From contig NZ_JAUZEE010000001.1 in NCBI RefSeq assembly GCF_030705305.1, positions 248,001-312,000 of the forward strand: a DNA stretch of 64,000 nt, given 5' to 3'. Below, one piece after another: positions 3,068-52,746 of the stretch. The stretch is from Leptothrix discophora. GTDB taxonomy: Bacteria > Pseudomonadota > Gammaproteobacteria > Burkholderiales > Burkholderiaceae_C. Position 1 is the stretch's first letter; each line of letters opens with the position of its first letter. The position numbers and the translations under genes were made by a program. The notes beneath the pieces are model-generated. The model did not search any database and was not told the DNA's origin. It worked only from the letters and a program-made list of their open reading frames with translations.

Positions 3068-3171
3068 GTCGGGCGATGCGGCTGGTTGGGCGGACAAGGC
3101 GTCCCCGTGTCGGGACGTCGTTCAGGCCCTTGCGAGATCGGCCGCGGAATTGCCGACTTGAGCGCCGGGCA

Positions 3172-4539: not shown

Positions 4540-6486
<1,947 letters not shown>

Positions 6487-48147: not shown

Positions 48148-48402
48148 TCAGCGCCGGTCGCCGCCAGCCTTCTGCTTGTCCAGGTCCTCGTCCAGCCCTT
48201 CACCCGCGTCACGGTAGGCGCGCCAGTGGTCCATGGCGCTGCGCGTGAGCCGCGTCTGCCGGGTGAACACCGGGCAGGCCTTGCAGATCCACAGGTGCAC
48301 CCGCACGCCCACCCGTTCGCCAAGCGACAGGGTGCGTTCCTCGCCTTCGAGGACAAGGCGGGTGACATCTCGGCAGCTGAGCATCGGTCGCATGGGGGTC
48401 AT
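48148..48402 (-). CDS. Anti-sigma factor with ZAS-type zinc-finger (zf-HC2)
   Basis: The protein has 84 residues. The ATG at 48402 overlaps the stop of the sigma factor gene (ATGA), which supports this start. LSCRDVTRLVLEGEERTLS followed by HLWICKACPVF gives the HxxxCxxC zinc-binding core of anti-sigma factors, with the upstream Cys as a likely fourth ligand. There is no membrane segment, so it would be a soluble, redox- or zinc-responsive partner like ChrR/RsrA. Its partner is the sigma factor just upstream. It is convergent with the nitronate monooxygenase gene. Confidence 0.85.
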   Translation of the reverse strand: MTPMRPMLSCRDVTRLVLEGEERTLSLGERVGVRVHLWICKACPVFTRQTRLTRSAMDHWRAYRDAGEGLDEDLDKQKAGGDRR

Positions 48403-48959
48403 CGTCCAGGACTGGGGGGAGAGAACCAGTGGGTCTGCAGGCATGCGCGCAGCCTCAGCTTGGCGCGGTGCAGCAGCACGAACAGGTTGGTCGAGCTGAT
48501 GCCCAGTTGCTGACAGACCTCGTCGGTTTCCAGGCCCAGCCACTCCCGCATCATGAAGACCTGCCCTTGCTGGCCGGGCAGGTGGTCGACACAGGCGTCC
48601 AGCACGGTGATGAACTGGCGCTGGCCGAGCGTCGCCTCCGGGTTGCCCCATTCGGCCGGGGCCTCGCGCCAGTGGCCGTCCGGCTTGAAGAGCAGGTCGT
48701 CGAGGTCCTCGTCGTCCTCGCGCGTGCTGGAGATCTCGCGGCCGTGGCGGCGGATCTGGTCGATCAGCTTGTGCTTGAGGATGCCGATCAGCCAGGTCTT
48801 GAGCTGACTCTGGCCGCCGAAGGACTGGGGCTTCTCCAGCGCCACGATCAGCGTCTCGGACACCGCATCTTCGGCCCAGGCCTCGTTGCGCAGCTGCTTG
48901 CGGGCATAGCGCATCAGCGGTTCACGCAGGGCTTGCAGCTGGTTCGCGAGATCGGTCAT
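48399..48959 (-). CDS. ECF-type RNA polymerase sigma factor
   Basis: The protein has 186 residues. Region 2 spans about residues 12-70 (MRYARKQLRNEAWAEDAVSE to LIGILKHKLIDQIRR), an acidic linker EDDEDLDDLLF follows, and region 4 covers about 120-175 (CVDHLPGQQGQVFMMREWLG, then VCQQLGISSTNLFVLLHRAK). It would direct a stress regulon, released when the coupled ZAS anti-sigma factor loses its grip, for example on oxidation. The target promoters cannot be read here. It is divergent from the ABC operon, with 139 bp between starts. Confidence 0.92.
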   Translation of the reverse strand: MTDLANQLQALREPLMRYARKQLRNEAWAEDAVSETLIVALEKPQSFGGQSQLKTWLIGILKHKLIDQIRRHGREISSTREDDEDLDDLLFKPDGHWREAPAEWGNPEATLGQRQFITVLDACVDHLPGQQGQVFMMREWLGLETDEVCQQLGISSTNLFVLLHRAKLRLRACLQTHWFSPPSPGR

Positions 48960-49098
48960 GGGGGCGTCTGGAGCGGAGGGCGGGCGCAGTGTAAGGACAG
49001 GGCATGACGTGCGACGAAGCGGTTCGCGGCATCGGCCCGGGCCCCGGCTCAGTCGTGTCCGCTGGCATCATTCTTACTGCCCTTCCGGAGATCCGCGC

Positions 49099-51420
49099 AT
49101 GACCTGTCCCGACCCTGCTGCCACCACGCGACGCACCCACCTGCGATGGCTGGGCCTCGGCGCCGCCGCGACGCTGGGCCTGGACGTCCGCGCACAGGAC
49201 GCGGCCTGGGCGCGCACCGAGGCCCAGGCCCGCGGCCAGACCGTCTACTTCAATGCCTGGGCCGGCAGCGAGCCGATCAACGCCTACATCCAGTGGGCCG
49301 CCGGCGAGCTGCAGCGTCGCCACGGCATCAAGCTCGAGCACGTGCGCATCACCGACGCGGCGGAGGTGGTCCAGCGCGTGCGTGCCGAACAGCGTGCCGG
49401 CCGCAGCGACGGCTCGGTCGACCTGCTGTGGATCAACGGCGAGAACTTCCATGCGATGAAGCGCGACCGCCTGCTGCTCGCGCCCTGGGCCGAGCGCCTG
49501 CCGTCCTATGCCGGCGTCGACACCCAGGGCAAGCCGACCACGCGCAGCGACTTCGGCGAGCCGGTCGACGGCCTGGAAGCGCCCTGGGGCATGGCCCAGC
49601 TGACGTTCTACGGCGATGCGCCACGGCTGGGCGGTGCGCCGCCGCGCAGCCTGGCCGCGCTGCTCGATTGGGCCCGTCGCCATCCGGGCCGCTTCAGCTA
49701 CCCACGCCCGCCGCAGTTCCACGGCACGACCTTCCTGAAGCAGGTGCTGCTGGAGGCGCTGCTGCTGCTCGCGCTGGTGCCGTGGCCGCTGGCGCAGGCG
49801 CTGGCGGAGGCTGTCCGGCAGGGTGTCGACCCGGCCGGCTGGCAGGCCTTGGCGGCCGATCCGCAGACCTTGCCGGCCTGGCGCCTGTCGGTCCAGACTG
49901 CCCTGCTCAGCAGCACGCTGGCCCTGCTGGCAACGCTGTGGATCGGCAGCGCCTGGCAGGCCGACGCGCTGGCCGGCACGCCGCGTTGGCAGCGGCGGGT
50001 GCGGGGCTGGGGCGCCATGCTGGCGATGCCGCATGCCGCCGCCGCGATCGGCCTGCTGTGGCTGCTGATGCCCTCGGGCTGGCTGGTCCGGCTGGCGGCA
50101 CTGGCGGTGCCTGGCCCGGGTTGGGACGCGCCGCCCGAGCTGGTGCTGGCCAACGATCCACAGGGCCATGCGCTGGTGCTGGCGCTGGTCGTCAAGGAAC
50201 TGCCCTTCCTGCTGTGGATGCTGGCGGCCGACTGGGCCCGGCCGGAGCTGGCCCAGCGCCTGTCGCAGCAGCTGGTGGTGGGCCGCAGCCTGGGCTGGCC
50301 GGCCCGCAGCCTGGCCTGGCGACTGCTGTGGCCGCAGATGCTGGCACGGCTGCGCTGGCCCTTGCTGGCCGTGCTGGCCTATGGCCTGACCGTCGTCGAC
50401 ATGGCCTTGTTGCTCGGCCCCGGCAATCCGCCGACGCTGGCGGTGCTGGCCTGGGACGGGCTGCGCGATGCCGACCCGTCGCGCCAGTCGCAGGCCGTCG
50501 CCGCCGCCTGGCTGCTGACCGTCACGCTGCTGCTGCTGGCGGTGGCGGGTCGTGCGGCGATGGGGTGGGTGTCGAACCGGCTGGCCGAGTCGCTGCGGGA
50601 CGGCCCGCCCCTTTCCTCGACCTTGCGCCGCCCCGATGGGCCGGGACGGCTCGCACGCGGCGCACTGACGAGCTTGGGCGGGCTCTATGCCGTCCTGTGG
50701 CTGGTGCTGGCGATCGGCTCGGTCAGCGCAAGCTGGCGCTACCCGGCGCTGTGGCCACAGGCGCTGACCGGGCAAGCCTGGCAACAGGCCGTGCTGGACG
50801 GCGGCGTGCTGCGCGACAGCGTGCTGCTGGCGGCCGCCACGGCGCTGCTGTCGCTGGCGACGGTGATCGCCTGGCTGCAACTCGCGCCGCCGACCTGGGA
50901 CCGCTGGGCCATCGGCCTGAGCAGCACGACGCTGGTGCTGCCCACGTTGCTGCTGCTGGCCGGCCTCTACCCCTGGTTCCTGGTCTGGCGGCTCGACGGC
51001 GGCTGGCCCGGCCTGGTCTGGGTCCATGGCCTGATGGCCTTGCCCTATGTCGCGGTCGCGCTGCAGCCGTCCTGGCGCGCGCTCGATCCGCGCTACCTGG
51101 CGACCGCACGAACGCTCGGGCTCACGCCGTGGCGCCAGCTCTGGTCGGTGCGGCGGCCCATGCTGGCCGCGCCGATCGCATCGGCGCTGGCGGTCGGCTG
51201 GGCGGTCAGCCTGGGCCAGTTCCTGCCGACGCTGTTCATCGGCGCGGGCCGGCACCGCACGCTGACGACCGAGGCCGTCACGTTGGCCGCCGGCGGCCAG
51301 CGCCATGCGGCGGCGGCCTTCGCGCTGCTGCAGGCGCTGCTGCCGCTGGCCGGTTTCCTGCTGGCCAGCAGGGTCGGCCGATCGGGCCGCGCCGCGTCCT
51401 CCGGGAGGCTCGCCCGATGA
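49099..51420 (+). CDS. Fused YnjB-like binding protein (N-terminal half) and YnjC-like ABC permease
   Basis: The protein has 773 residues from the ATG at 49099, with GGAG upstream. Residues 1-30 are a Tat-like signal (RRTHLRWLGLGAAATL). Residues about 35-220 match the first lobe of a YnjB-type substrate-binding protein (VYFNAWAGSEPINAYIQWAA, VDLLWINGENFHAM, FSYPRPPQFHGTTFLKQVL). At about residue 221 it runs without a stop into a hydrophobic double permease of about 550 residues, whose two halves each end in a coupling helix (SLGWPARSLAWRLLWPQML; TLGLTPWRQLWSVRRPML). YnjB is about 390 and YnjC about 510 residues in E. coli, so the C-terminal lobe of the binding protein is absent. The ATPase gene follows with ATGA overlap. 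Whether the fused product imports anything is doubtful; the transported compound is unknown. Confidence 0.85.
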   Translation: MTCPDPAATTRRTHLRWLGLGAAATLGLDVRAQDAAWARTEAQARGQTVYFNAWAGSEPINAYIQWAAGELQRRHGIKLEHVRITDAAEVVQRVRAEQRAGRSDGSVDLLWINGENFHAMKRDRLLLAPWAERLPSYAGVDTQGKPTTRSDFGEPVDGLEAPWGMAQLTFYGDAPRLGGAPPRSLAALLDWARRHPGRFSYPRPPQFHGTTFLKQVLLEALLLLALVPWPLAQALAEAVRQGVDPAGWQALAADPQTLPAWRLSVQTALLSSTLALLATLWIGSAWQADALAGTPRWQRRVRGWGAMLAMPHAAAAIGLLWLLMPSGWLVRLAALAVPGPGWDAPPELVLANDPQGHALVLALVVKELPFLLWMLAADWARPELAQRLSQQLVVGRSLGWPARSLAWRLLWPQMLARLRWPLLAVLAYGLTVVDMALLLGPGNPPTLAVLAWDGLRDADPSRQSQAVAAAWLLTVTLLLLAVAGRAAMGWVSNRLAESLRDGPPLSSTLRRPDGPGRLARGALTSLGGLYAVLWLVLAIGSVSASWRYPALWPQALTGQAWQQAVLDGGVLRDSVLLAAATALLSLATVIAWLQLAPPTWDRWAIGLSSTTLVLPTLLLLAGLYPWFLVWRLDGGWPGLVWVHGLMALPYVAVALQPSWRALDPRYLATARTLGLTPWRQLWSVRRPMLAAPIASALAVGWAVSLGQFLPTLFIGAGRHRTLTTEAVTLAAGGQRHAAAAFALLQALLPLAGFLLASRVGRSGRAASSGRLAR

Positions 51421-52103
51421 GCCACCCCGACCGCGCGCCGCAACCTCGTGGCCTGGTCCTGCGCGACCTGCGCCTGACCCTGTCCGGCCGGCCGCTGCTC
51501 GCCCCGATCGATGCCGACGTCGGCCCCGGCGAGGTGCTGGCGCTGACCGGTCCGAGCGGCTGCGGCAAGAGCTCGTTGCTGCTGGGCCTGGCTGGCGTGC
51601 TGTCGCTGCCGCTGCGCCTGACCGGCCTGGCCACGCTGGGCGGCGTCGACCTGGCCGGCCTGCCGGCCGAGTCGCGCCGGCTCGGCCTGATGTTCCAGGA
51701 CGACCTGCTGCTGCCGCACCTTGATGTCGCCGGCAACCTGCTGTTCGGGATGCCCGCCGGCGGGACGCGGCGCGAGCGGCTGGGCCGGGTCGACGCGGCG
51801 CTGGAGCGGGCGGGCCTGGGCGGCTGCGCCTCGCGCCGGCCGGAGCAGCTGTCGGGCGGCCAGCGCCAACGGGTCGCATTGCTGCGGGCCTTGTTGTCCG
51901 AGCCGCGTGCGCTGTTGCTGGACGAGCCGTTCTCGCGCCTGGACGCGACGCTGCGCGCCAGCTTCCGCGCCTGGGTCTGGGCAACGCTGGCCGAGCGCGG
52001 CCTGCCGGCGCTGCTGGTCACGCACGACCTCGACGACCTGCCGCCGGGCGCTCGCCGGATCGACTTGCAGAGCGCGCCGGAGGAGGGCGCCGACCATGCT
52101 TGA
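51417..52103 (+). CDS. ABC transporter ATP-binding protein (YnjD-like)
   Basis: The protein has 228 residues from the ATG overlapping the preceding stop, with GGGAGG upstream. Walker A LTGPSGCGKSSLLLGL is near residue 45, the Q loop is LMFQDDLLLPHL, the signature LSGGQRQRVALLRAL near 145, Walker B ALLLDEPFSRLDATL, and the switch His in LLVTHDLDDL. All are intact, so the ATPase should work. It belongs with the fused permease upstream and overlaps the phosphatidyltransferase gene by 8 bp. Confidence 0.95.
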   Translation: MSHPDRAPQPRGLVLRDLRLTLSGRPLLAPIDADVGPGEVLALTGPSGCGKSSLLLGLAGVLSLPLRLTGLATLGGVDLAGLPAESRRLGLMFQDDLLLPHLDVAGNLLFGMPAGGTRRERLGRVDAALERAGLGGCASRRPEQLSGGQRQRVALLRALLSEPRALLLDEPFSRLDATLRASFRAWVWATLAERGLPALLVTHDLDDLPPGARRIDLQSAPEEGADHA

Positions 52104-52746
52104 CGCCGCCTTCGTCGCCCGCTTCGGGCCGCCGCTGGAACGCCTGGCCGCGCGGCTGGCGCGCACCGGCCTGAGCCCGGACGGGCTGAGCTGGACCGGT
52201 TTCGGTCTGGGCCTGGCGGCGGCCGCCGCGATCGTCGAGCAGGTCCACGTGCTGGCGCTGGCGCTGATCCTGGCGAGCCGGCTGGCCGACGGGCTGGACG
52301 GCGCGCTGGCCCGCCACCTGGGCCGCGCCAGCGCGCGTGGCGCCTACCTGGACATCACGCTCGATTTCCTGTTCTACGCGCTGGTGCCGCTGGCCTTCGC
52401 GTGGTCCGACCCCGCAGCCAACAGCCTTGCCGGCGCGACCTTGCTGGCCGCCTTCATGGGCACCGGCAGCAGCTTCCTGGCCTATGCCGTGCTGGCCGAA
52501 CGCCATGGCCTGCGCAGCGTCGCCTTCCCGCGCAAGGGCTTCTATTACCTCGGCGGCCTGACGGAGGCCGGTGAGACGCTGGCCTGCTTCGCCGCGATGT
52601 GCCTGTGGCCGCAGCACTTCGCGCTGCTGGCCTACGGCTTCGCGGCGCTGTGCGGGCTGACCGTGGCGATGCGCGTGCAGGCCGGCTGGCGCTGCTTCGG
52701 CGCGCTGGACCGGGCCGGTCCGGACACGCGACCGCCGCCGCGCTGA
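52096..52746 (+). CDS. CDP-alcohol phosphatidyltransferase family protein
   Basis: The protein has 216 residues. The catalytic signature D-x2-D-G-x2-A-R-x8-G-x3-D-x3-D is visible as RLADGLDGALARHLGR followed by GAYLDITLD (about residues 55-85). About five or six hydrophobic helices follow, so it is an integral membrane enzyme transferring a phosphatidyl-type group from a CDP-linked donor to an alcohol acceptor. Its start lies inside the ATPase gene, so it is translated with the ABC operon. Whether its acceptor or product is what the transporter handles is unknown. Confidence 0.88.
   Translation: MLDAAFVARFGPPLERLAARLARTGLSPDGLSWTGFGLGLAAAAAIVEQVHVLALALILASRLADGLDGALARHLGRASARGAYLDITLDFLFYALVPLAFAWSDPAANSLAGATLLAAFMGTGSSFLAYAVLAERHGLRSVAFPRKGFYYLGGLTEAGETLACFAAMCLWPQHFALLAYGFAALCGLTVAMRVQAGWRCFGALDRAGPDTRPPPR

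Follow-up and report, generated by a model that had tools for sequence, protein, structure and literature searches.

The window analysed here, a stretch of 64,000 nucleotides of Leptothrix discophora DNA, contains on its forward strand one open reading frame (49099–51420; ATG start, 773 codons and a stop) that encodes a twin-arginine signal, the front half of a YnjB-type binding protein and a nearly complete YnjC-type double permease. Probably a YnjBCD-type importer operon recently underwent an in-frame deletion of approximately 600 bp, which took out the second half of ynjB together with the beginning of ynjC and left this chimeric frame. A preliminary description of this DNA had already proposed a fusion with deletion as its cause, and that proposal is supported both by the frame itself and by the extra sequence that relatives carry at the equivalent place. 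The account draws on one assembly of one strain. The features of the locus are as follows.

49087–49090, forward strand: GGAG, a ribosome-binding-like run 8 bases 5′ of the ynjB start (direct reading of the sequence)
49099–49755, forward strand: 5′ half of ynjB, with the twin-arginine signal and binding-protein residues up to E219 (NF008633 at residues 29–221)
49756–49776, forward strand: the join, where YnjB similarity ends and permease similarity begins (codons 219–226; alignments)
49777–51420, forward strand: ynjC-type double permease gene without its native start and N-terminal tail (PF00528 at residues 595–748; permease similarity)
51417–52103, forward strand: ynjD-type ATPase gene, 228 amino acids, intact (PF00005, E 5e-27; its start overlaps the permease stop)
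52096–52746, forward strand: CDP-alcohol phosphatidyltransferase gene, 216 amino acids, intact (PF01066; YnjF-like operon position)

The two parts of the fused protein are recognized independently. The NCBIfam profile NF008633 (PRK11622, YnjB-type binding protein) matches residues 29–221 with 275.9 bits against a cut-off of 203 (E 5e-82), and the match covers only positions 19–209 of the 397 in the model, so the chain does not include a complete YnjB-type binding protein. From there the permease similarity starts immediately and extends from about residue 222 to 766, with 48–53% identity to the best full permease matches; on this similarity and a plain hydropathy scan the second part is a YnjC-type double permease with 12 membrane segments. 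Its native start codon and N-terminal tail are gone and the permease side begins inside the first membrane segment, ahead of whose aligned part the relatives have approximately 15–25 extra residues. The ATPase follows directly downstream and is intact. The gene order, the NF008633 match, the permease identity and the intact ATPase and last gene are all those of a YnjBCD-type operon, from which the window differs in that only half of ynjB is left and continues in frame into ynjC. As to the preliminary description, its Tat-type signal, its two protein parts and their fusion stand, as does its claim that the ATPase and last gene are intact (PF00005, PF01066, and a change at only one of 48 near-invariant ATPase positions); its wording that a first lobe of YnjB is kept does not, the retained part being something other than a whole lobe.

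The join had been placed at about 49740–49765, and alignment with the separate YnjB and YnjC homologues of relatives, which the preliminary description had called for, moves it slightly. Compared with the permease N-termini of ten relatives, residues 221–262 score 64–99 against shuffled maxima of 44–54, whereas comparison with the YnjB half that the window lacks, taken from these ten relatives, gives scores of 23–36, at or below shuffled maxima of 36–54. The chain is thus YnjB-like before the join and permease-like after it, and since residues 221–262 resemble the permease and not the missing YnjB half, the join lies within codons 219–226, at about 49756–49776. Two alignments had run further: Pfam SBP_bac_8 continued past the join to residue 278 (27.6 against a cut-off of 27), and a same-genus YnjB aligned to about residue 288. 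The shuffle comparison supports neither of these extensions.

The search for the same join in other genomes, also proposed earlier, was carried out over 160 loci, of which 140 matched at E ≤ 1e-10 and 94 contained both parts. The two fused loci (L001 and L137) are the window's own, and the parts are fused in none of the 92 others, some of these being one genome fetched twice; in the other loci with a long open frame for each part, the two genes are separated by a stop. Matches, with the window's own genome counted each time, were found in 50 of 80 relatives at E ≤ 0.001 (often weakly and to the permease), in 62 of 399 genomes of the family at E ≤ 1e-30, in three of 399 of the order at E ≤ 1e-40 (the other two belonging to the same family) and in 13 of 369 of the class at E ≤ 1e-40. 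Fusion was checked on DNA for part of these genome matches and for the remainder on the match table, in which no single match spans both parts. One match across residues 139–761, in G134, was considered as a second fusion and rejected, its two genes lying in different frames. Within the genus, YnjB and the permease are found at separate places in four of the 12 other genomes searched (G004, G007, G008 and G009). The titles and abstract openings of publications on YnjB(CD) transporters, GlnPQ fusions and in-frame deletion fusions name no half-YnjB/YnjC fusion. In one further genome (G029; locus L005) there is a permease match and no YnjB match at E ≤ 0.001, and the locus is close to a contig end; its operon is possibly without a binding protein.

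Both genes were mapped in 44 loci, and in the 36 where they are close together (three relatives being counted twice) there is 575–765 bp more than in the window at the join, with a median of 613.5; eight loci with at least 1378 bp are excluded from this range. The two same-genus relatives (L004 and L035) have 611 bp more each. The earlier estimate of about 500 bp was therefore too low, the figure being about 611 bp relative to the two congeners. The space between ynjB and ynjC was examined in seven of the eight loci with the wider spacing (in L046 only in part), and six of them have further long frames there (L039, L040, L043, L065, L078 and L079), of which two were identified: an Abhydrolase_2 (phospholipase/carboxylesterase) protein at 3103–3951 of L078 and an Hsp70-type protein at 5273–6514 of L065. 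Elsewhere one stop codon is all that separates ynjB from ynjC, which share a reading frame (L006, L009, L045, L123, L136, L141 and L148; also L154 and L156, from the same genomes as L141 and L148), so that losing it would join the two genes at full length; no fusion of this kind was found.

The preliminary description had offered deletion between short repeats as a simple explanation; the deletion is supported, and the part played by repeats is neither supported nor refuted. In 41 relatives the longest word common to the two corresponding sites measures 6 bases at the median and 9 at most, the median in control pairs also being 6, and words of 8 bases or more occur in 12% against 6% of control pairs. 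No repeat that would explain the event is present at these sites, which are the sequence of relatives and not the ancestral one. The CTG-rich run at the join may have helped the deletion.

The main rival to a deletion is an error of assembly or sequencing, in which ynjB and ynjC are in reality two whole genes and the assembly has omitted approximately 600 bp. We consider it unlikely, and several observations nevertheless fit it: the join is present in one genome only, the assembly is in 31 contigs, and the conserved residues are kept in both halves, as they would be in two intact genes. On the other side, the frame is preserved across the join, which is 14 kb or more away from either end of the contig (the window is positions 248001–312000). 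Assembly collapses normally require longer repeats, and the short words shared by the two sites in relatives are thus mild evidence against one. The missing half is also absent from the other contigs searched: neither a second ynjB nor a loose second half was found in the window's genome, where there is no other YnjB match at E ≤ 1 and where, apart from the fused gene, a single weak match to part of the permease occurs (27% over residues 635–767).

If the deletion is real, its age may be read from the residues that the relatives hold in common. Near-invariant positions, defined as common to at least 95% of the other sequences, were taken from 38 relatives (37 for the ATPase) chosen from loci with good matches to both parts. 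In the window one of 56 has changed in the YnjB half, two of 57 in the permease and one of 48 in the ATPase, and the relatives range from 0 to 9, 0 to 5 and 0 to 2, respectively, so that the window is in this respect like a typical relative. Under free drift at 0.08 changes per site, the chance of at most one change in 56 sites is about 6%, so that if the gene is dead its death was recent. Conserved positions with no further decay point to a recent event, unless the sequence itself is in error. The suggestion of a decaying transporter accordingly holds for one broken gene and fails for any wider decay, of which the conserved positions show none. In depth on the trees the YnjB half ranks 33 of 39 (not fast), the permease 7 of 39 (on the fast side) and the ATPase 1 of 38; these mixed depths leave room for a faster operon overall, beyond what the deletion alone explains. 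The ATPase at 51417–52103 has the longest root-to-tip distance of the 38 sequences, yet keeps 47 of its 48 near-invariant positions.

What the retained half of YnjB could still do was considered on a predicted structure. An attempt to align the whole chimera with fragments of YnjB halves and of permeases, each entered as its own row, was abandoned because every permease row had about 130 residues misplaced over the YnjB half; a second alignment of this kind seemed no better, and neither was folded. Instead we folded the intact YnjB of the same-genus relative L035 and, separately, the permease part of the fusion. The YnjB model (mean pLDDT 89.3) matches solved binding proteins of ABC importers with TM-scores of 0.50–0.67 by query length in the best 50 rows, including binders of ferric ion, polyamines and sugar phosphates, and as modelled the intact YnjB is a two-lobed binding protein. 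Searched by sequence, the YnjB half had no match among solved structures, and the permease part had four weak ones (PotC and molybdate permeases). In the two-lobed fold each lobe is assembled from separated stretches of the chain. The fused protein represents 187 of the 374 residues of mature L035 YnjB, namely the equivalent of residues 1–187 with the modelled strands up to 137–141 and the helix at 174–187, and has no equivalents of the strands at 246–249, 268–271 and 277–285. With the later strands absent, what is left is half a fold, its front part, rather than a lobe, and on the model it is unlikely to trap a ligand.

The preliminary description had also raised a new arrangement, in which the tethered front half of YnjB acts on the permease other than by the usual capture of ligand. 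The open frame through the join and the 55 of 56 near-invariant residues kept in the YnjB half are what a working chimera would display, and such conservation, being expected if the chimera worked, counts against the deletion account. The idea finds no positive support, given that none of the 92 other loci shares the fusion, that the piece is half a fold and not a domain and lacks the return strands, and that the membrane topology seems to clash with it. We therefore rate it as scarcely probable. Its fuller form, in which the chimera is made, inserted and selected, the half-YnjB serves as a fixed cap or half-site, the importer runs without a free binding protein and the first helix is re-oriented or buried, is the least probable reading of all.

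The topology puzzle noted earlier is real. The signal has its twin arginine in the window and in all 13 relatives printed, and a plain hydropathy scan finds 12 hydrophobic segments in the chimera, as in L004, L075 and L033 (11 in L035), the first of them (216–234) spanning the join. Twelve segments behind a twin-arginine signal set an exported front part against the usual topology of the permease, and the pattern suggests a clash with an exported N-terminal domain. The permease model has a mean pLDDT of 88.1 and, as such a model, carries no information on orientation; confidence falls to block averages of 50–62 over the first 30 residues, where the join lies, and the modelled shape of the join is thus uncertain.

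In a further reading, translation of the permease by itself would begin at a start codon close to the join, the importer being independent of a binding protein and the ynjB remnant a leader. In-frame GTG codons at 49744 and 49777, a GGAGG run at 49752–49756, the retained first membrane segment and the conserved positions kept in permease and ATPase are compatible with it. The GGAGG, however, comes after the first GTG and 20 bases ahead of the second, no in-frame ATG occurs from the join to codon 307, and importers of the YnjBCD type normally require their binding protein. This reading is very unlikely.

The preferred explanation remains that one deletion event removed about 600 bp in frame between the neighbouring ynjB and ynjC. 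It would have destroyed the binding protein by removing the back half of ynjB, and with the ynjC start removed, translation of the permease would be possible only within the chimera or at a weak start codon inside the frame. Half a binding protein would presumably be unable to form a ligand trap and binding-protein-dependent uptake by the operon would be lost, and the ATPase and the last gene are still translatable. From the sequence comparisons we infer that the deletion is real and recent; it is most likely confined to this strain or species. The whole has the look of a gene pair broken in one genome, or possibly of a mistake in assembly, and not of a novel type of transporter.

A chain that carries both binding-protein and permease sequence is also found in GlnPQ, OpuA and the PotC–PotD fusion MMSYN1_0195, which have complete binding domains and matching membrane topology. 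The window's chain differs from the GlnPQ/OpuA kind in having no complete binding domain, and the MMSYN1_0195 model matches it only at residues 626–716 (22.3 bits against a cut-off of 1250). If real, the event has cleanly and recently deprived a little-characterised importer of its binding protein and left the ATPase and last gene intact, and it offers a natural test of whether a YnjCD-type permease is active in the absence of YnjB. If it is an artefact, it warns against inferring fusions of genes from one draft assembly. In either case the general understanding of ABC importers would stay as it is.

Two other frames adjoin or overlap the fused gene. A divergent gene just upstream, at 48399–48959 on the reverse strand, encodes an ECF-type sigma-70 family protein (Sigma70_r2 and Sigma70_r4_2), and an open frame of 1020 codons at 48922–51984, also on the reverse strand, is antisense to the entire fused gene and is taken as a by-product of high G+C content.
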